A stretch of DNA of 64,000 nt from Lysobacter sp. (GTDB lineage Bacteria; Pseudomonadota; Gammaproteobacteria; Xanthomonadales; Xanthomonadaceae), in assembly GCA_008015835.1 (NCBI GenBank), contig SSGH01000006.1, positions 124,001-188,000 of the forward strand, written 5' to 3'. Made by a program: the position numbers and the translations under genes. The notes below the pieces were generated by a model. The model made no database searches and was not told where the DNA came from. It was given only the letters and a program-made list of their open reading frames with translations. Below, piece by piece: positions 45,054-54,004 of the stretch (position 1 is its first letter; every line of letters begins with the position of its first letter).

Positions 45054-45150
45054 GACCCCGGAAGAGCGCATAGACTTGCATGGTCTCGACCGGCGAAAAC
45101 GGCTCGAATCCGACGCCGACACCATCCACAACGACCGCGGGAGCATGACG

Positions 45151-45648
45151 ATGAACGCGACTACGGAACTGCCTCTGTCCACCGAACGCCCCATCGACCG
45201 CTGGTTCTCGAAATACTCCGGCGATCATCAGAACGGCACGAATCAAACGATTCACTTCATCGCGGTGCCGACGATTCTGTGGACCGTGACCGCGATGCTG
45301 TGGTGCATTCCGGTGCCGGGCACATGGTTCCAGCCCGGCGCGTGGTGCGCGCTGGCGATGTTCGCGGCGTGGATGTTCTATTACCGCGCCTCGCGCAAGA
45401 TCGGCCTGGGGATGCTCGCGGTGTTCGTGGGCATGTCGTGGTTCAACCGCTGGCTGTACGGCGCCATCGGGCCGATGGCGATGCTGCAACTGGCCGCGGC
45501 CGTGTTCGTGGCGGCCTGGATCGCGCAGTTCGTCGGCCACAAGATCGAAGGCAAAAAGCCCAGCTTCTTCACCGACGTGGTGTATCTGCTGATCGGCCCG
45601 GCGTGGGTGCTGGGTAAGGTCTATCGCGCATTCGGTTGGAAGTTCTGA
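45151..45648 (+). CDS. Mpo1/DUF962 family membrane protein
   Basis: 165 residues; the ATG at 45151 is 7 nt from a GGGAG site, better spaced than the ATG at 45145. WFSKYSGDHQNGTNQTIHFIAVPT at the N-terminus and AQFVGHKIEGKKPSFFTDVVYLLIGPAWVLGK at the C-terminus match Mpo1/YGL010w. The yeast protein is an Fe-dependent dioxygenase for 2-hydroxy fatty acids; the conserved His residues (DHQN, HFIAVP, GHKIEG) are present. Four membrane helices. Confidence 0.9.
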   Translation: MNATTELPLSTERPIDRWFSKYSGDHQNGTNQTIHFIAVPTILWTVTAMLWCIPVPGTWFQPGAWCALAMFAAWMFYYRASRKIGLGMLAVFVGMSWFNRWLYGAIGPMAMLQLAAAVFVAAWIAQFVGHKIEGKKPSFFTDVVYLLIGPAWVLGKVYRAFGWKF

Positions 45649-46021
45649 ACGATGCGATGCGATGCCGGCTTCGATCCGGCATCGCTACCAGCGCTCTTCG
45701 CCGCTCTCGCTTCCAACGCTCGCGACACCAGCGGCTGTTAAGGAAGGCCAATCACTTGGGTGATTGATCCGCGAGCGCGTCATTCATGGCGCGCGGAACC
45801 TCTGAATTGTTCAGAGGTTCCTTAACGCTCAGGGCGCATTGCGTTGCGAATTCGGCGGCCCGGTGCGAGGCGCGGGCGGCTTGAACGCGGAATATCGCGC
45901 GACACGGCCAGCGATCGAAATTTCCGATGCGGGAGGGCCGAACTGGCCGCTTTCGCGAAAAACTCCCGTGACCTGATTACGTCGCCTCGCTCCGAAGGCG
46001 CGAAATCCAAGGGAGGAATCC
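45649..46021. other. Intergenic region before the lipoprotein array
   Basis: 373 bp without a gene. It contains the hairpin element at 45737-45827 and presumably the promoter of the first array gene, which has a strong GGGAGGA ribosome site at 46010-46016. Confidence 0.5.
45737..45827. repeat. Nested and mutually exclusive hairpins
   Basis: Hairpin CAATCAC-TTG-GGTGATTG (45749-45766) and a perfect 12-bp stem GGAACCTCTGAA-TTG-TTCAGAGGTTCC (45795-45821). An outer pair GTTAAGGAA (45737-45745) and TTCCTTAAC (45819-45827) overlaps the right arm of the second stem, so the outer and inner pairings exclude each other. Confidence 0.75.
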
Positions 46022-46831
46022 ATGCATTCGTTCCATCGAACCGTTTTTCGATACGTCGCGATCGCATCCTGCGCCGCGATCGTCGCCAATGGCTGCACGC
46101 TTCCGCGCGAAGCGATCCAGCACCTCGGTACCGTCACGCCCGCGCAATACTGTCCGGGCGATACCGTTCGCGCCAGTTTCGACCTTCTCGGTACCGACAC
46201 CTGTCGCGACGCGGCGTTGTGCGACACGCTGTTCCCGACCGTGAACATCAGCAGCACGCCGACGGCGTTCGCGGCACGAGACATCCGCAATTACGTCGGG
46301 GGCGTCGATTTCGTTGCCACCACGGACAGCGTGACCGTGCGCTTCGACGCGGATCGCGACGCGGTGATCGTGCCGACGACGCGCCTGGACGATGCGGGCA
46401 ACCCGATCACCGTCTCGAAAAAGTTCAGGCGGCCGCATATCACCACGATCAATCGCATCACCGGAAGCATCGAATCGGAATTGCTGTTCGAAGGCACCTG
46501 CGCCGGTGGCTTGCCCGCGCATATGCCCGCCGAACTCCTGTCGCCGACAATGTCGCCGAATCTGCGCCTGACCGATCTGTGCAATACCAACAGCATGGCG
46601 GTCACCGTCACCCTCAGCGGGGGCGCGCCGGGCACGCCTTACCCCCCGCAAACGCTCGCGCCTGGTCAGTGCCTCAACACGATGATGCCCGGTGTCCCCG
46701 ATGGAGTCGATAGGTCCACCCGCGTTGATATCCGATCTGAGAACATCGCTGTGGGAGTGTATTGCACCGCCGTCGATTCGAGCGACCAGCCCCCCCCGCT
46801 ACGCCTGCTCGCGCGCAAGACCTGCGGCTGA
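46022..46831 (+). CDS. Array gene A1: 8-Cys outer-membrane lipoprotein
   Basis: 269 residues. Lipoprotein signal with lipobox VANGC (Cys25); +2 is Thr, so outer-membrane sorting is expected. The mature part has eight more Cys in a fixed pattern shared with four paralogues downstream: QYCPGDTV, TDTC, ALCD, EGTCAGG, LTDLCN, PGQCLNT, VYCTA and a C-terminal KTCG. Likely a beta-rich, disulphide-bonded fold. No named domain. Strong GGGAGGA site. First gene of the array, 98 bp before B1. Confidence 0.82.
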   Translation: MHSFHRTVFRYVAIASCAAIVANGCTLPREAIQHLGTVTPAQYCPGDTVRASFDLLGTDTCRDAALCDTLFPTVNISSTPTAFAARDIRNYVGGVDFVATTDSVTVRFDADRDAVIVPTTRLDDAGNPITVSKKFRRPHITTINRITGSIESELLFEGTCAGGLPAHMPAELLSPTMSPNLRLTDLCNTNSMAVTVTLSGGAPGTPYPPQTLAPGQCLNTMMPGVPDGVDRSTRVDIRSENIAVGVYCTAVDSSDQPPPLRLLARKTCG

Positions 46832-46929
46832 TCGCAGAGTTCGCATCGCTCATTCTTATCGCGACCGCGACCATTCCGACGGTGCACGCGCCCGTCGCGG
46901 TTCGACGCATCACGACCCGGGAATTTCGT

Positions 46930-47562
46930 ATGAACATCATTCGTTTGTTGTGTTTGCTCGCGACGCTGGTCGCGACCGCCGCGCCCAGCGCATCCGTCGT
47001 CGCGCAAGTATCCGCAGTGGATCAATTGCGGATCTACGACAAGACCACGTACAGCGGCCGCCTGACGGAGCGGGTATCGTTGTACGACGCGCCGAATCCG
47101 AAGACCGGCGTTTACCCCGCGCCGGAGCAATACTCCGCCGATGTGCTGTTCGAGCGCCCCGACCGGTTCAAGCTGGTCCTCGGAGCCGGCAGCGGCAGCG
47201 AATACCGTGCTGTCGCCGATGCCGGCATTGTGCGCTGGAAGGATCTCGCCAGCGGACTGTCCGGAAAGGATACGGCGGAGCAGGTCGTCGACCCGTTGGC
47301 GATGGCGCTGATGGCGACAGCGGGCGAATTGAGCCTGTTCGCGCCGCCGAAAGCGCTGCCGACGCCCAAAGGCAGCGACGTCAGCGGCGCGCATCTGGTG
47401 CCCAAGACCTACGGTAGCGGGGTGGAAAGCGCGACCGCGTGGTTCAGAGGTGGGCAGCCCATCGGTTTCGAGTTCCGCCTGCGCGACGGACGTCGGGTCT
47501 TCGTGTCGGTACTATCGTTCGCGCAGAATGTGCCGACCAAGCCCAGCGACTTCCTGCTCTGA
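46930..47562 (+). CDS. Array gene B1: secreted LolA/DUF2092-like protein
   Basis: 210 residues with a Sec signal peptide ending ASVVAQ, no lipobox. The mature protein has DQLRIYDKTTYSG, the FERPDRFKLVL strand pair typical of LolA/DUF2092-like lipid-binding folds, a long helix (DPLAMALMATAGELSLFAP) and GFEFRLRDGRRVFVSVLSF before the ending NVPTKPSDFLL. It has no conserved Cys. By fold it may be a periplasmic carrier or chaperone for a lipid or lipoprotein, perhaps for its A neighbours; this is inference. Confidence 0.8.
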   Translation: MNIIRLLCLLATLVATAAPSASVVAQVSAVDQLRIYDKTTYSGRLTERVSLYDAPNPKTGVYPAPEQYSADVLFERPDRFKLVLGAGSGSEYRAVADAGIVRWKDLASGLSGKDTAEQVVDPLAMALMATAGELSLFAPPKALPTPKGSDVSGAHLVPKTYGSGVESATAWFRGGQPIGFEFRLRDGRRVFVSVLSFAQNVPTKPSDFLL

Positions 47563-47714
47563 TCCAACGACATCGCTGAGGCCGACGCGGGCGCATTGCG
47601 GACATCGGGCGATCGAGGATCGACTCGACTGTCCTGTTCGCGGGCGCGCTTGCGTTTGCCTTGGCACACACCGCCCGCGCACACGGACCTGCGCCTTCGC
47701 CTCGGGAGACCGCG

Positions 47715-48524
47715 ATGTCCTTTCACCGCAATCTTTTGTTCCGTTCGACCATGCTGTGCGTCTGCAGCGCTATCGTGGCGACCGGTTGTCTGTTGGATCG
47801 CAGGCCGCTCGCCAACTGGCCGAAACTGGAGCCGGCGCTGTTCTGTCCGGGCGATACGGTCACGGCGTCGTACGACTTCCTCACCCCGGAAACCTGCCCG
47901 GCCGATGCGAGCTGCAGCAGCTTTTTCCCGACGGTTCGGATGAACAGCACGCCGACGGCGTTTCCGGCGCGCACCACCACCAATTTCGTCGATAGCGTGA
48001 CCTTCACGCCGCCAGGGGACAGCGTCACCGTCGCCTTCGATATCGATCGCGACACCGTCACCGTCCCGACCGCGCGCTTCGACGGCGGCACGCGCATTTT
48101 CGTCGCGCGCACCCAATTGGTCGACGCGACGCGCGTCACGCGACGCCTGATCGGCACCGACAATCAGGTCTTGCCGCATCCCGGCGAATGCGCCGGCGGC
48201 ATCGCGAACTATTCGCCGATCGAAGTACCGGGGTTCCCGCGGTTGTCCACGCGGGTGCGTCTGGAGGAGTTCTCCAACGAAAACAGTTTTCCGGTGCGTT
48301 ATATCGTCAGCGGCAGCGTACCCGGCGAGGTCTTCGATTCGATGCTCATGCCTGGGCAGCGCGTCCTGACCACCATGCCCGGCGTGCCGGCCAGCATCGC
48401 CGAAGCGCGCTCGATCGAAGCGATTCCGCTGATCGCGCAGATGTGTACGCCCGGCAGCGGCGCGACGGATCCGGAACCGCAACCGCCGCCGCTCCGCACC
48501 GGCGTTCGCATGGGCTGTCGCTGA
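47715..48524 (+). CDS. Array gene A2: lipoprotein lacking two of the eight conserved Cys
   Basis: 269 residues, lipobox VATGC (Cys25), +2 Leu. It keeps LFCPGD, PETC, ASCSSFF, GECAGG, AQMC and the terminal MGCR, but LTDLCN has become LEEFSN and PGQCL has become PGQRVL. The two lost Cys are absent together, so in the paralogues they probably bond to each other. Otherwise colinear with A1 (FPTVRMNSTPTAFPA, MPGVPAS). Lies 152 bp after B1. Confidence 0.82.
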   Translation: MSFHRNLLFRSTMLCVCSAIVATGCLLDRRPLANWPKLEPALFCPGDTVTASYDFLTPETCPADASCSSFFPTVRMNSTPTAFPARTTTNFVDSVTFTPPGDSVTVAFDIDRDTVTVPTARFDGGTRIFVARTQLVDATRVTRRLIGTDNQVLPHPGECAGGIANYSPIEVPGFPRLSTRVRLEEFSNENSFPVRYIVSGSVPGEVFDSMLMPGQRVLTTMPGVPASIAEARSIEAIPLIAQMCTPGSGATDPEPQPPPLRTGVRMGCR

Positions 48525-48625
48525 TCGCGCATCGCTCCCGCAGCGAACGTGCGGTCGCGCATTCGCGCGCCCGCGTTCGCGCCATCCACGATACGGCGCC
48601 GCGCGCGCCTTTCGAGAGGTACAGA

Positions 48626-49252
48626 ATGAAGATCTCCCGCTGCTTTTCCGCGCTCTTGGCCGCGTCGTTGACGCTGTACGCCACGGTGCCGACGTTCGCC
48701 GCCGGCCCCGCCGTCGATCGTCTCAAGTATTTCGACGGTACTACGTCTACCGCCTGGTTCGATGGCCAAGCGAAACTGTACGCCGCGCCCGTCAAAGGCA
48801 ATTACGGCACCCCGCAGCGCTATCGCGCGCAACTGCTGTTCGCGCGGCCGGATCGTTTTCGTTTGATGCTGCGCCCCGGCGCGAAGAACGAATACCGCGC
48901 CGTCGGCAACGCCGGTAGCGTGCAGTGGCTCGATCTCGGCACTGGATTCTCCGGCCAAGGCAAAGCCCTCGATTACGTCGACCCGGCCGCGTTGGATCTA
49001 TTGAGAACGGTCGGCGAACTCTGGCGATTCGCGCCGTCGAAGGAACTCCCCGCCGCCGACAAGGGCAATCTGCGCGGTGCGGTGCTGGTGCCGAAGAGCT
49101 TCGACAGTCGCGTCAAGCGCGCAGTCGTGTGGTTCCGCAACGATCAACCCTACAGTTTCGATTTCGAATTCGTCGACGGCCGCAAGCTGCAGTTCACCGT
49201 GTCGAGCTTCAAGCAAAACGTACCGACAAAACCGAGCGATTTCCAACTCTGA
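48626..49252 (+). CDS. Array gene B2: secreted LolA/DUF2092-like protein
   Basis: 208 residues, signal peptide ending PTFAAG. Shares with B1 and B4 the RPDRFRLMLRPGAKNEYRAV block, SVQWLDLGTGFSG, and the ending NVPTKPSDFQL. The KYFDGTTSTAWFDGQAKLY segment differs most. It is followed by a strong terminator at 49338, so the A1-B1-A2-B2 set is probably one transcript. Confidence 0.8.
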   Translation: MKISRCFSALLAASLTLYATVPTFAAGPAVDRLKYFDGTTSTAWFDGQAKLYAAPVKGNYGTPQRYRAQLLFARPDRFRLMLRPGAKNEYRAVGNAGSVQWLDLGTGFSGQGKALDYVDPAALDLLRTVGELWRFAPSKELPAADKGNLRGAVLVPKSFDSRVKRAVVWFRNDQPYSFDFEFVDGRKLQFTVSSFKQNVPTKPSDFQL

Positions 49253-49337
49253 GCTTCGAGGAAGTTTCGTTTGCCGCGAAAGACGAGAAATCGCGGCGAA
49301 GACACGAGCGAATCGCGAAAAACGCATCGAGACACGA

Positions 49338-49368
49338 CGAGCCGGCGCAACGCCGGCTCGCTTTTTTT
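49338..49368 (+). terminator. Intrinsic terminator after B2
   Basis: CGAGCCGGC-GCAAC-GCCGGCTCG (9-bp stem) followed by CTTTTTTT. It ends the first four-gene set of the array. Confidence 0.92.
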
Positions 49369-49502
49369 GCGTCCCGACGAACGCGACGCGAAATGTGTCC
49401 GTTGCGTTTTCGGTTTTCCGTGACTTTGATCGGACCCCGAATATCGTTCGTCGCGCATCACGCATCGCGTATCGAGCGACAGTCGCCAAAAAGGAAATCT
49501 CG

Positions 49503-50276
49503 ATGAATCCCTTCCGAACGCTTGCCAAACCCATTCTCTCGTTGCTCGCTGCCGGCGTGCTGCTGACCAACGGCTGCGCGCTTCCGCATGCGCAACTGCG
49601 CTATTCCAAGGCAGAGCCGGCGTACTACTGCCCGGGCGATACGATCCAGACCAGTTACGACCTCGGTACCTGCACGGCGCACTCGGGGATTACCTGCGAA
49701 TCGCGTACGCCGACCGTCACCCTGACCACGACATCGGCGGCGCTCCCCTCGCAGACCTTCACCGCGTTCGCCGGCAACGCCAGCTTCACGCCGAACGAAT
49801 CGCAAGTCGATGTCACCTACACGGTGACGCCGAAAAATCCGATGTACCCCTTCGTCACCAGCAGCGGCGAGAACAGAATCAGCGGCGAGTTCGAGCCCGA
49901 AACGACGAAGCTCGCCCTTATCAACGGCGAAGCCCAGGTCACGTTGTGGCACAACGGCATCTGCAACGGCCGCATCCCAGCGAATGCGCCGTCGCAGATT
50001 CCCACGACGCCTCAGGTGTCGGCGCGCGCACGCGCGCAACGCATCTGCAATGCCAATCCGGTCCGGATCATGGTCGATGTGGTCGGCCCACCGGGCGGCG
50101 GGAGCGCGTCCGGCTCGCTCGCGCCCGGCGAATGCCTGGCGCTGCCGCCGGGCAGCGAAGGCGGTACCGTCAGCGTTTCCGGGCCCATTCCGGTCGGTGC
50201 GCAGTGTCTTGCGACCCAAACGACCGCGCCCGCGCCCGAATTGCGCACCCAGGTCGCATACAACTGCGTGGAATAA
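49503..50276 (+). CDS. Array gene A3: 8-Cys outer-membrane lipoprotein, divergent copy
   Basis: 257 residues, lipobox LTNGC (Cys25), +2 Ala. The Cys pattern is kept (YYCPGDT, LGTC, ITCES, NGICNG, QRICN, PGECLA, AQCLA, YNCV) but the sequence between is the least similar of the five, with a shorter middle. It stands alone: a terminator before it, and a hairpin (50361-50382) and 451 bp without a gene after it. Its B partner seems to be missing. Confidence 0.78.
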   Translation: MNPFRTLAKPILSLLAAGVLLTNGCALPHAQLRYSKAEPAYYCPGDTIQTSYDLGTCTAHSGITCESRTPTVTLTTTSAALPSQTFTAFAGNASFTPNESQVDVTYTVTPKNPMYPFVTSSGENRISGEFEPETTKLALINGEAQVTLWHNGICNGRIPANAPSQIPTTPQVSARARAQRICNANPVRIMVDVVGPPGGGSASGSLAPGECLALPPGSEGGTVSVSGPIPVGAQCLATQTTAPAPELRTQVAYNCVE

Positions 50277-50727
50277 GACAGCGTCCTCGTCGCGAGGCTC
50301 CGCTGGACGCACCGAACGGCGCGAATTCCATCCGCACATAGCGCATGCAGTCGCACGCAACGAACCGACGCCTGTCGGTTCGTGTTCTGCGCACCGTTGC
50401 GCGTTCCGGAATCCGCTCTCGTCATCATGCGATGCGTATCGTCGAGATCGATGGCCTGAGTGAACGTCGAAACAACATGCCGACCGCATCGGCGGCGCTC
50501 CGAATGCGGATCGGACTCGGCACATCGTTCGATCGAGCGCCGCGCATCGTCGCGGAGGTGTCCTCCCGCTTTCGGTTCCCGCGTATCAGTGCTTCGAGTC
50601 CGATCTCATTCGGTCGCCGCCATTCGACCGCTGCGATTGAGTCTCCTCGACACAATCGTCGCGACTCATTCTTCTGGCGATTCCGCACGGCGTCGCATCG
50701 CCGCATTCATCCCACAGGGGCAATCGC
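50277..50727. other. Gap in the array where a B gene would be expected
   Basis: 451 bp. A perfect hairpin CGAACCGAC-GCCT-GTCGGTTCG (50361-50382) followed by TGTTCT could terminate A3. I found no trace of the B family motifs (PDRFRL, NVPTKP) in any frame. Confidence 0.5.
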
Positions 50728-51531
50728 ATGCATTTTTCGCAAAACCGTTGGTTCCGTTACGTCGCGGTCGGTATCTGTTTGGCCGTGGTCGCCAGCGGCT
50801 GCATCATTCGACGCGGGGATCTCGCAGCGAGCTACACAGAACTGGCGCCTGCGCAGTACTGCCCTGCCGATGCGATGACCGCCTCTTACGATTTGCTGGG
50901 CACCGATGTCTGTCCCACCGGCGTGGACTGCGCGCCGTTCTTCCCAACGGTGGCGATCGACAGCGCACCGATCGCGTTTCCCGCGCAATCGATCGCGAAC
51001 TATGTCGGCCGCGTGAATTTCACCGCACCGGATGCGGACCAATTCGCGGTGACGTTCAATCCCGATCGCGACAGCGTGCTGATTCCCACCGCCGAGACGA
51101 CACCGGACGGTCGCGTCTTTCTGCAGCGCAGCAGCCCCGATCAGAGCAGGATCGCCAGGCGCGTCTCCTCCATCGACCAGGAACTGGTGCATGGCGGCAT
51201 GTGCGCGGGAAGCGCACCGGTCAACAGCGCGCAACCGCTGCCCGGAATGCCGCAATTCTCGCCGAATCTGCGGCTCACCGATCTGTGCAACGTCAACGCG
51301 GCCACGGTGATCGTCACGTTGTCCGGCGGTTCGGACGGTTCGACGTTCACGCAGATGCTCGCGCCCGGCCAATGCCTCGCATCGATGCCCGGCGTGCCCG
51401 CCAGCACCGAGAGCGCACGCATCGTCGAAGTACGGCCTCTCTCGGCGGCGCCCGGCACGCTCTGCAGCGCGACCGGACCGAACACGCCGCCGCCCCCGCT
51501 ACGCACACGGGTGCGGATGCAATGCCGCTGA
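50728..51531 (+). CDS. Array gene A4: 8-Cys outer-membrane lipoprotein
   Basis: 267 residues, lipobox VASGC (Cys25), +2 Ile. All eight Cys are present (QYCPAD, TDVC, VDCAPFF, GGMCAGS, LTDLCN, PGQCLAS, TLCSA, MQCR). Closest to A1 by the shared ASYDLLGTDVC, FSPNLRLTDLCN and VTLSGG segments. Begins the second transcriptional set with B4 and A5 (gaps of 55 and 59 bp). Confidence 0.82.
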   Translation: MHFSQNRWFRYVAVGICLAVVASGCIIRRGDLAASYTELAPAQYCPADAMTASYDLLGTDVCPTGVDCAPFFPTVAIDSAPIAFPAQSIANYVGRVNFTAPDADQFAVTFNPDRDSVLIPTAETTPDGRVFLQRSSPDQSRIARRVSSIDQELVHGGMCAGSAPVNSAQPLPGMPQFSPNLRLTDLCNVNAATVIVTLSGGSDGSTFTQMLAPGQCLASMPGVPASTESARIVEVRPLSAAPGTLCSATGPNTPPPPLRTRVRMQCR

Positions 51532-51586
51532 GCGACCAGAACGCAGACAACACGAACGATCTTTCCACTTTCAAAGGGACGCCACC

Positions 51587-52219
51587 ATGAACCGTATCCG
51601 CCCGCTCGCCTGCTTCGCACTCGCATTGACGCTATCGCTCGGCACCGCGTTCTCCGCGCAGGCCGCTTCCGCGAGCGATCTGCTTCGCCATTACGACAAA
51701 ACCACCTACAGCGGCGCGCTCGATGTTTACGTCGATCTGTACGCCGCGCCGGACAAAAACGGCAAGGTCGGCGCGCCGCAGCGCTATCCCGCCAAACTGC
51801 TGTTCGAACGCCCGGATCGCTTCCGGCTCGTGCTGCGTCCCGGCGCCAAGAACGAATTCCGTGCGGTGAGCGAGGCCGGGATCGTGCGTTGGCTCGATCT
51901 GGCGACGGGTTTCTCGGGCAAGGAAGAAGCCGACAAGGTGACCGACCCGCTCGCCCTCGCGCTGCTCGGTACCGCCGGCGAATTGCTGCGTTTCAGCGCG
52001 GCGAAAGATCTGCCCGTCAGCAAGAACGCCAAGCTCAGCGGCGCGCGGTTCGATCCCAACGCCTACGGCAGCGGCGTGGAAAGCGGGTTGGCCTGGTTCG
52101 ACAGCGACGGCCAGCCGGTCGGCTTCGAATTCAACATGACCGATCGCAGCCGTGTCTTCGTTGCTGTGATGTCGTTCGCGCAAAACGTACCGACCAAACC
52201 CGACGATTTCCAACTTTGA
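51587..52219 (+). CDS. Array gene B4: secreted LolA/DUF2092-like protein
   Basis: 210 residues, signal peptide ending FSAQAA. RHYDKTTYSGALDVYVDLYAAP, LLFERPDRFRLVLRPGAKNEF, IVRWLDLATGFSGKE, the helix DPLALALLGTAGELLRF, then YGSGVES-LAWF and the ending NVPTKPDDFQL. Close to B1 and B2 over its full length. No Cys in the mature part. Confidence 0.8.
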   Translation: MNRIRPLACFALALTLSLGTAFSAQAASASDLLRHYDKTTYSGALDVYVDLYAAPDKNGKVGAPQRYPAKLLFERPDRFRLVLRPGAKNEFRAVSEAGIVRWLDLATGFSGKEEADKVTDPLALALLGTAGELLRFSAAKDLPVSKNAKLSGARFDPNAYGSGVESGLAWFDSDGQPVGFEFNMTDRSRVFVAVMSFAQNVPTKPDDFQL

Positions 52220-52278
52220 CCTTCGCGCGCCGTGGATGCGATCCGCGGCGCGTTCGATATGCACGGAGGCCCATTTCC

Positions 52279-53097
52279 ATGTCCTTCACGAGATTCGCTT
52301 CTCGCAGCGTGTTGGCGCTCATCGCCGGCGGCGTCCTGCTGACCGACGGCTGCGTGCTGTTCTCCCGAATCACCTTCACGCCGAGCGAGCCGCTCGGGAG
52401 CGTGTCCCCTCGGCTGTATTGCCCGGGCGACGGCGTCACCGCGAGCTTCGATCTGCTGCGCGATACTCCGTGCGTGTCGCGCCCGGGGCTCGACTGCGCG
52501 GCATTGGCGCCCACGATCGACATCGCCAGTTCGCCGACCGAATTCGCGCCGCAACGCATCGTCGATTTTCGCGGGCGCGTCGATTTCACGCCCGCTTCCG
52601 GCAGCGTCAACGTGACCTTCACACCGGCGCTCCGATCGTACGTGGAATATCCGTCCGGGCCGGCGAGCGGAACCGACTTTACCCGGCGCCGCTTCACCGC
52701 GAACACGATCGCCGCAAGCCGCGTCGATGGCGACGTGATGCGGCAAGTGGAACACGGCGGTATGTGCGCCGGCTCCGCACCTACCCACGCCGACGGCGTG
52801 GTGCCGGGTCCGCCTGAACTGTCCGCGAGCCTGCGCCTGCGCCGGATCTGCAACAGCAGCGCGACGCAAATCATCCTCAGCGTTCCGGGCTTGCCGGGCG
52901 AGATGATCGAACGCAGCCTCGCGCCCGGACAGTGTTTCCTCGCGAGCGAACCCGGCGTCCCGCCGGATGTCGCCGCGCTGCGCACGTACAGCGTGCGCGC
53001 AGCGGTGTTGGACCCGAATGCGCGATGCAGCGCAATCGAAGACAGGACGCCGCCGACACCGTTACGCACGACGGTTTGGATGGGCTGCGGCATGTGA
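52279..53097 (+). CDS. Array gene A5: 8-Cys outer-membrane lipoprotein
   Basis: 272 residues, lipobox LTDGC (Cys25), +2 Val. Cys pattern LYCPGD, DTPC, LDCAAL, GGMCAGS, RRICN, PGQCF, ARCSA, MGCGM. Like A3 its signal peptide reads GGVLLT-GC. Last gene of the array; the SDR gene is convergent 40 bp after it. Confidence 0.82.
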   Translation: MSFTRFASRSVLALIAGGVLLTDGCVLFSRITFTPSEPLGSVSPRLYCPGDGVTASFDLLRDTPCVSRPGLDCAALAPTIDIASSPTEFAPQRIVDFRGRVDFTPASGSVNVTFTPALRSYVEYPSGPASGTDFTRRRFTANTIAASRVDGDVMRQVEHGGMCAGSAPTHADGVVPGPPELSASLRLRRICNSSATQIILSVPGLPGEMIERSLAPGQCFLASEPGVPPDVAALRTYSVRAAVLDPNARCSAIEDRTPPTPLRTTVWMGCGM

Positions 53098-53137: not shown

Positions 53138-54004
53138 TCACTCGCCGGCTAACGGAAACATTCCCGGGGCCGGTCGGAACCCGCGTGGCGCGTAGCCGAA
53201 ATCGCGCTGCGCATCGCTCGCGTCGAACACCAGATCGCTGCGCATGCGCGCGACCGCGGCTTCGTTGAAATCCAGCGCGTATCCGGCGGCATGCGCCAGC
53301 GCCAACAGCGCATTGAAGAACGGCGACGGCACTTCGTGCAGTTTCGGCGGCGGCGTCATCGCCTGCAGCACGCGCGCCACCATCTCGCGATACTCCACCG
53401 TTTCGCCGCCGGGCAAGGCATAGGCGCGGCCGAAGCTGGCCTCCGCGTCGAGGCAACGAAACGCCGCATCCGCCAAGTCGCGCACATGCACCGGCTGACG
53501 CAGACCGCGCGCATCGCGCGGCAGTACGACGCGGCCGAACCGGCGCGCGACCTCGGCGATGCGGGTGAGGTTGCGATCGCGGCCCGCACCGTAGATCAGC
53601 GTCGGCCGCAGCACGGTCGCCGCAGCGTTACGCGCGCTCGCGGTCTCGAACACCAGACGCTCGCCCTCGCGCAGACGCGCGGCGAGTTCGCGTTCGTCGG
53701 CGTCGGCGGAGCCGCGCTTGACGTCGATGCTGGTCGAACCGAACGCGACCACGCGCGGGCAGCGCAGCGGCGTCGCCGCGTACCAGCGCGCGAACACATC
53801 CAGCGGCCCGCAACTGATCATGGCGTCGGCATCGTTGGGCAAGCCGCGCACGCCGGAGAAATCGCCTTGCAGCCAATGCAGGCCGGGCTGATCCGCCTGC
53901 GGTTCGCGCGACACCGCGTACACGCGCCATTCGTCGTCGCGCAACAGATCGAGCAAGGGCAAACCGATTTGACCGCTAGCGCCGAACACGAGCGCGGTCT
54001 TCAT
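53138..54004 (-). CDS. Atypical short-chain dehydrogenase/NAD-dependent epimerase family protein
   Basis: 288 residues. Rossmann fold with GASGQIGLPLLDLL (nucleotide loop), FGSTSIDVKRG, then RPTLIYGAGRDRNL and YALPGGETVEYREM. The usual YxxxK is not obvious, as in atypical SDRs. It overlaps the end of nhaD by four bases (ATGA), so it is translated with it. Role unknown. Confidence 0.82.
   Translation of the reverse strand: MKTALVFGASGQIGLPLLDLLRDDEWRVYAVSREPQADQPGLHWLQGDFSGVRGLPNDADAMISCGPLDVFARWYAATPLRCPRVVAFGSTSIDVKRGSADADERELAARLREGERLVFETASARNAAATVLRPTLIYGAGRDRNLTRIAEVARRFGRVVLPRDARGLRQPVHVRDLADAAFRCLDAEASFGRAYALPGGETVEYREMVARVLQAMTPPPKLHEVPSPFFNALLALAHAAGYALDFNEAAVARMRSDLVFDASDAQRDFGYAPRGFRPAPGMFPLAGE

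Follow-up and report, generated by a model that had tools for sequence, protein, structure and literature searches.

What would a bacterium do with eight consecutive genes that belong to only two families? The question is raised by an array in a Lysobacter sp. contig, lying in what we call the window (the whole stretch of DNA analysed, 64,000 nucleotides), where five genes for Cys-rich predicted lipoproteins (family A) and three genes of a second family (B) stand in the order A-B-A-B-A-A-B-A (Table 1). This organisation, first described in a sequence-only reading, is confirmed by the open reading frames and by their mutual similarity inside the genome. With A4 as query the remaining four A are recovered at E values of 4.9e-61 to 3.8e-30, and with B4 both other B at 3.6e-68 and 5.7e-56; at E<=1 this genome showed no further A or B copies except for one weak A match of 62 residues (E 0.045). 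The copies have diverged, the window A being 28-44% identical to the first A and the B 46-57% identical to the first B. LolA is usually described as the general carrier of outer-membrane lipoproteins, and the reading that we tentatively prefer, while giving it somewhat less than an even chance, is that the locus is a dedicated lipoprotein-plus-carrier module, with B a private LolA-type carrier and A its client or outer-membrane partner.

Table 1. Genes and other features of the array and its borders (positions in the window)
Feature	Position	Strand	Description
Mpo1-like membrane protein (PF06127)	45145-45648	+	upstream flank
A1	46022-46831	+	269 aa predicted lipoprotein; lipobox-like Cys25, N at −2; ten Cys in total
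B1	46930-47562	+	210 aa LolA-fold family protein; signal-peptide-like start (by eye)
A2	47715-48524	+	269 aa predicted lipoprotein; LCN and PGQC each without their conserved Cys
B2	48626-49252	+	208 aa; NCBIfam LolA match E 4.5e-5, under the curated cut-off
Terminator-like hairpin	49338-49360	+	10 pairs and a T run, 3' of B2
A3	49503-50276	+	257 aa predicted lipoprotein; subgroup A-II; N at −2
A4	50728-51531	+	267 aa predicted lipoprotein; source of the A structure model
B4	51587-52219	+	210 aa; source of the B structure model; LolA fold (Foldseek)
A5	52279-53097	+	272 aa predicted lipoprotein; subgroup A-II; D at −2
NAD-dependent epimerase family (PF01370)	53138-54004	-	flank, convergent with the array

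Predicted lipoproteins of family A

In all five window A the lipobox-like Cys is residue 25 and the next residue is T, L, A, I or V and never Asp, as the sequence-only reading had it. Across the family all 29 A have the GC of the lipobox-like site within residues 22-25, and none has Asp at +2, as would befit outer-membrane sorting if the +2 rule is assumed to hold in this genus. The PROSITE-type lipobox pattern is fitted by 15 of the 29; the other 14 carry N or D at −2 (in the window A1, A3 and A5), which we take to lie outside that pattern. The lipobox-like site and its lack of Asp at +2 make exposure of A at the cell surface no more than possible.

Besides the lipobox Cys, six are invariant in the 28 aligned A (C45, C62, C68, C159, C246 and C266 in A4 numbering). 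The Cys pattern earlier said to be common to every A is mostly kept, with exceptions in A2, which has FSN for LCN and PGQR for PGQC, and in A4, which has CPAD and not CPGD. The Cys of LCN and PGQC (C187 and C216 in A4 numbering) are jointly absent from exactly three of the 28, those of the A2 type, and this joint absence suggests that the two may be disulfide bonded to each other.

The structure model of A (from A4) is of good confidence (pLDDT 82.5) and mostly beta. Against the PDB, Foldseek gave it no match at E<=0.001, the best being an Ena2A fibre (2.7e-3, TMq 0.21), and neither LolA nor LolB is among the best 50 PDB matches listed, which argues against placing A with LolB. A viral structure library returned three matches at E<=0.001, all to uncharacterised or unnamed proteins with TMq at most 0.27. 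A PDB sequence search with A gave nothing at E<=1, and the 28 A found only weak and mutually unrelated matches in Pfam and NCBIfam (best E 0.058 and 0.019). The Pfam, NCBIfam and PDB searches thus put A in no characterised family, where such a match would have spoken against the earlier reading, and A is a predicted lipoprotein family without a model in the libraries searched.

Family B has a LolA-type predicted fold

B1, B2 and B4 are proteins of about 210 aa with an N-terminus that by eye resembles a signal peptide, and all three terminate in NVPTKP[SD]DF[LQ]L, as had been claimed. The alignments used for structure prediction contained nine of 18 aligned B and 14 of 28 aligned A. The B structure model (from B4) has a pLDDT of 67.4, with the N-terminal helix and the helices in the lid position of low confidence (block means about 40-55), and shows with moderate confidence the LolA superfamily fold, a half-barrel of antiparallel strands with an N-terminal helix and a helical lid. 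Its Foldseek match to P. aeruginosa LolA (E 1.2e-8, prob 1.00, TMt 0.62) is one of a series, since LolA entries make up the first 23 of 58 matches at E<=0.001 (in complexes such as 8orn and 7arm the LolA chain is presumed) and include structures from P. aeruginosa, P. gingivalis, E. coli and X. campestris.

The other matches of the model include a DUF1329 protein (E 6.8e-6), LprG (E 2.5e-4) and, at rank 50, MucB (6in9_A, E 3.4e-4). The last of these would fit B being a periplasmic sensor or quality control protein akin to RseB/MucB, which would sense A, or the lipid of A, left undelivered, but the LolA matches of the model are far stronger, B is a single domain of 210 aa and a sigma or anti-sigma gene was not seen among the flank proteins scanned, and so we consider a sensor very improbable.

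At the level of family models the likeness to LolA is slight. In Pfam and in NCBIfam alike, three of the 18 B matched LolA models at E<=0.1; B2 stays below the curated cut-offs of TIGR00547 (23 against 112 bits) and PF03548 (15.5 against 23.6), and B1 and B4 have no LolA-model match at E<=1 in either library. An hhalign comparison of B with the LolA of its own genome was not significant (0.2%, E 0.26), and a PDB sequence search with B gave a single match, to CupB2, at E 0.72. DUF2092 matched none of B1, B2 and B4 at E<=1 and none of the 18 B at E<=0.1, and a DUF2092 identity is rejected. The original description of B as LolA/DUF2092-like therefore survives in its first half, through the predicted fold and with a weak LolA sequence match in B2 alone of the window copies, and fails in its second.

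The housekeeping LolA of the genome lies on another contig (E 4.6e-45), and B is therefore extra to it. Within the RPDRF motif of B an Arg (R75) is invariant in 18 of 18; by eye it sits where E. coli LolA has Arg43. The LolA of this genome reads SAPRLF at the RPDRF position. Since, moreover, X. campestris LolA is reported to carry a Thr at that Arg position (PMC10368991), R75 is no mark of membership.

A and B occur together and side by side

Profile searches placed A in 10 of 198 genomes of a family sample and B in the identical ten, and both in the identical 10 of 11 genomes of a genus sample, so that B was not found mostly without A, a result that would have refuted the earlier reading. In an order sample A was seen in 3 of 348 genomes and B in 4, the fourth being a 36-residue partial match in G306 (E 4.3e-4), a genome without A, which was excluded from the B counts. 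In a class sample searched for B only, one of 369 genomes, the own genome, was positive. Genomes recur between these samples, and in all searches but those of the own genome and the genus no more than 7-15 candidates per genome were scored, so that remote homologues may be missed. Left out before the counts were L056, a duplicate of L048 (G156), and secondary fragment matches within two ORFs. Named matches among GTDB contigs were Lysobacter sp. PRO5, Lysobacter sp. SJ66 (two contigs) and a Lysobacteraceae bacterium, all of them MAGs.

In the 14 loci each of the 19 B has an A immediately upstream of it, at a gap of 34-147 bp. None of the 13 genomes, some of them fragmented assemblies, has fewer A than B copies, a ratio that would fit clients served by a carrier. 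The architectures outside the window are A-A-B-A-B (G156), A-B-A-A-B (G460), A-A-B and A-B on two contigs (G461), A-B-A-B (G089), A-A-A-B (G061), A-A-B (G013, G115 and G189) and A-B (G459), of which those of G460, G461 and G061 may be cut by contig ends; the other genus (G015, G062 and G190) has A-B. In the window A5 has no B behind it, and its clade mates in G156 and G089 each have one.

Histories of adjacent A and B run largely in parallel

Distances among adjacent A and B correlate with r 0.67 for the 16 pairs of the genus and r 0.587 for all 19 pairs, values that none of 5000 free shuffles reached in either case. When B were swapped only within genomes (five genomes with several pairs), a re-pairing that keeps relatedness fixed, the true pairing was the best of 96 (mean 0.22, next 0.627). 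The trees show the same in parallel groups: the A2 type goes with the B2 type in three genomes, the first A of G089 and G459 with the first B of each, and the A-II of G156 and G089 with the second B of each. The A4 type occurs in six genomes and stands immediately before a B in five of these, an A-II intervening in G061; the six B of these genomes cluster, with weak support, together with those of G115 and G189. Since in G061, G115 and G189 the A adjoining such a B is of type A-II, the match of the A and B trees is strong and not perfect. The simplest history is that an A-B pair was duplicated in one genus. Silent cassettes for antigenic variation are rejected, the A being 28-44% identical to the first and falling into old subtypes common to several species.

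Chromosomal place and loss of the array

In nine other loci, from both genera, the array is bracketed by an EamA gene (PF00892) and an epimerase gene (PF01370), and a tenth locus (G061) stops before the epimerase. A mobile island is rejected as the main account on this constant place and on the lack of any match to B4 or A4 at E<=0.01 among 72,556 plasmid records. An Mpo1-like gene lies beyond EamA in nine of the ten other loci, Mpo1-like, PurC and NhaA genes are found further out in most array loci, and a gene of NhaD type, matching CitMHS in Pfam, occurs in the window and at four other array loci. The flank families scanned were SAICAR synthetase, Mpo1-like, EamA, epimerase, CitMHS, Na+/H+ antiporter and DnaJ, and in the scanned flanks no additional LolCDE, LolB, RND exporter or ABC exporter was seen beside the array. 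Two peculiarities of the window itself are that an EamA-type gene is absent at 45649-46021, though present immediately upstream of the array in all ten other loci, and that a DnaJ-domain ORF (PF00226, 42927-43574, minus strand) has an N-terminal part of short repeated stretches, its true start perhaps lying further in.

One genome of the same genus (G137) has the Mpo1-like, EamA, epimerase and NhaA genes but no A or B, its EamA and epimerase matches being separated by 31 bases (L096, 2400-2650). A flank-gene tree groups it with G115 and G189 (support 100), both A-A-B, and this position amid array carriers points to a clean loss of the whole array, and hence to the array being dispensable. For the tree an NhaA match was found in 8 of 20 genomes searched, six of which were examined and five included, G040, where an EamA match was not found, staying out. 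The tree, whose root is uncertain, does not unite the two A-B genera, so that old losses may lie behind the distribution, or a transfer into this one place. In genera without A and B (G012, G052 and G008) EamA is kept near NhaA. At the same place in another genus (L099, 11400-12300) there is a small ORF, on the strand opposite EamA, with a signal-peptide-like start and unlike A or B.

The joint loss of A and B in G137 counts in favour of a private carrier. That a whole array could be lost is also in line with A and B acting in parallel in one envelope function without touching, their segment having been duplicated for dosage or niche adaptation, and duplication of the unit would explain pairing and parallel divergence without contact. 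Adjacency in all 19 B, across two genera and with never a lone B, despite the divergence of the copies, argues against this, and we hold it unlikely. Nonetheless duplication and loss as one segment would yield pairing, parallel trees and joint loss without any A-B contact, and all the genetic evidence can follow from linkage, which is the main weakness of the proposal that B carries A.

Comparison with known LolA-like systems

With LolA (PF03548, TIGR00547) B shares the predicted fold, a signal-peptide-like N-terminus without lipobox (by eye) and, in B2, a C-terminal stretch that LolA models align. Unlike LolA, it scores under the curated cut-offs and is multi-copy beside lipoprotein genes, the canonical LolA being elsewhere in the genome. 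The LolA2-LolB2 pair within the flexirubin operon of Flavobacterium likewise adds to the housekeeping LolA a LolA-fold protein tied to one locus, and the authors of its report regard such specialisation of LolA/LolB-like proteins to a pathway, if so, as the first example known to them (PMC11885536). LolA3 of P. gingivalis is another LolA-fold protein beyond the housekeeping one, and selective LolA-LolB pairing is reported for that species (PMC13103446). In these systems a LolB-like protein or a pigment pathway is the partner, whereas A is a predicted lipoprotein in tandem copies that belongs to no family in the libraries searched and whose model found no LolA fold. In aryl polyene clusters a LolA-like protein is clustered with a predicted lipoprotein, the clusters having ApeL as a predicted LolA-like chaperone, ApeN as a LolB-like protein, an RND transporter and lipid synthesis enzymes (PMC8253772), whereas neither such enzymes nor an RND transporter are present in the scanned A-B flanks. 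In Borrelia a seven-gene cluster restricted to one genus (BBJ23-29) has a second LolA-like protein, BBJ28, proposed as such in its report, together with its own ABC transporter and an Omp85 protein (PMC13078400); neither of the latter two was seen in the scanned flanks of the A-B locus. A monoterpene-growth protein is also reported to belong to the LolA superfamily (PMC6394551).

The aryl polyene and flexirubin loci would favour B shuttling another lipid or hydrophobic compound over the periplasm with A as its receiver or displayer at the outer membrane, that is, a lipid relay and not a sorting route. LprG and the DUF1329 protein among the B matches and the Mpo1-like neighbour, of a 2-hydroxy fatty acid enzyme family, point the same way. 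However, the scanned flanks are without a lipid synthesis cluster, RND or ABC exporter, and several flank genes are found at this location in genomes lacking A and B too, and a relay seems to us rather doubtful.

A search of the open-access literature listed no paper on the A-B pair. The assertion that no system of this form is described needs narrowing, since LolA-like proteins tied to one locus are already known or suspected (aryl polyene, flexirubin, BBJ28); what is new here is a LolA-fold protein paired with a tandem lipoprotein family.

How a private carrier might work

If B is indeed a carrier of A, then A would be secreted, lipidated at Cys25 and, since Asp is absent at +2, routed to the outer membrane, its Cys-rich and mostly beta domain probably stabilised by disulfides. 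B would be a soluble periplasmic LolA-type half-barrel with a cavity that may hold acyl chains, and its most likely job would be to take or hold the lipid anchor of the adjoining A for delivery to the outer membrane, alongside the housekeeping LolA. The earlier proposal that B carries A keeps its footing in the two families, their strict pairing and the LolA-type fold, and loses the DUF2092 likeness. Against it stand the lack of a LolA-model match in most B, the non-significant hhalign comparison with the own LolA, the moderate confidence of the B model, the 14 of 29 A that are off consensus at −2, the imperfect A-B pairing and the absence of an extra LolCDE, LolB or RND exporter from the scanned flanks, and by analogy the LolA-like proteins of other special clusters may carry other lipids. 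That each B carries only the adjoining A type, carrier and client having duplicated and diverged together in parallel to the general Lol pathway and possibly on to the cell surface, is somewhat doubtful. If true, it would tie a LolA-fold protein to one lipoprotein family and make client specificity and its determinants directly testable.

Transcription and coding of the array

Two transcripts had been proposed, A1 to B2 and A4 to A5. The strong hairpin after B2, the best of 12 terminator-like sites of all strengths against 6.9 expected, agrees with an end there. No sigma-70-type site was found, so that the idea of two transcripts rests on the gaps and the terminator, and with gaps of 250 and 451 bp around it A3 might form a separate unit. 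Across 12 orthologue pairs chosen for computation dN/dS was 0.07-0.51, showing purifying selection on these pairs, and the A and B sense frames thus look coding despite the long antisense ORFs that overlap them. The latter, on the minus strand opposite A and B genes at 47409-48482 (357 aa) and 49458-50525 (355 aa), are probably a codon effect of high GC.
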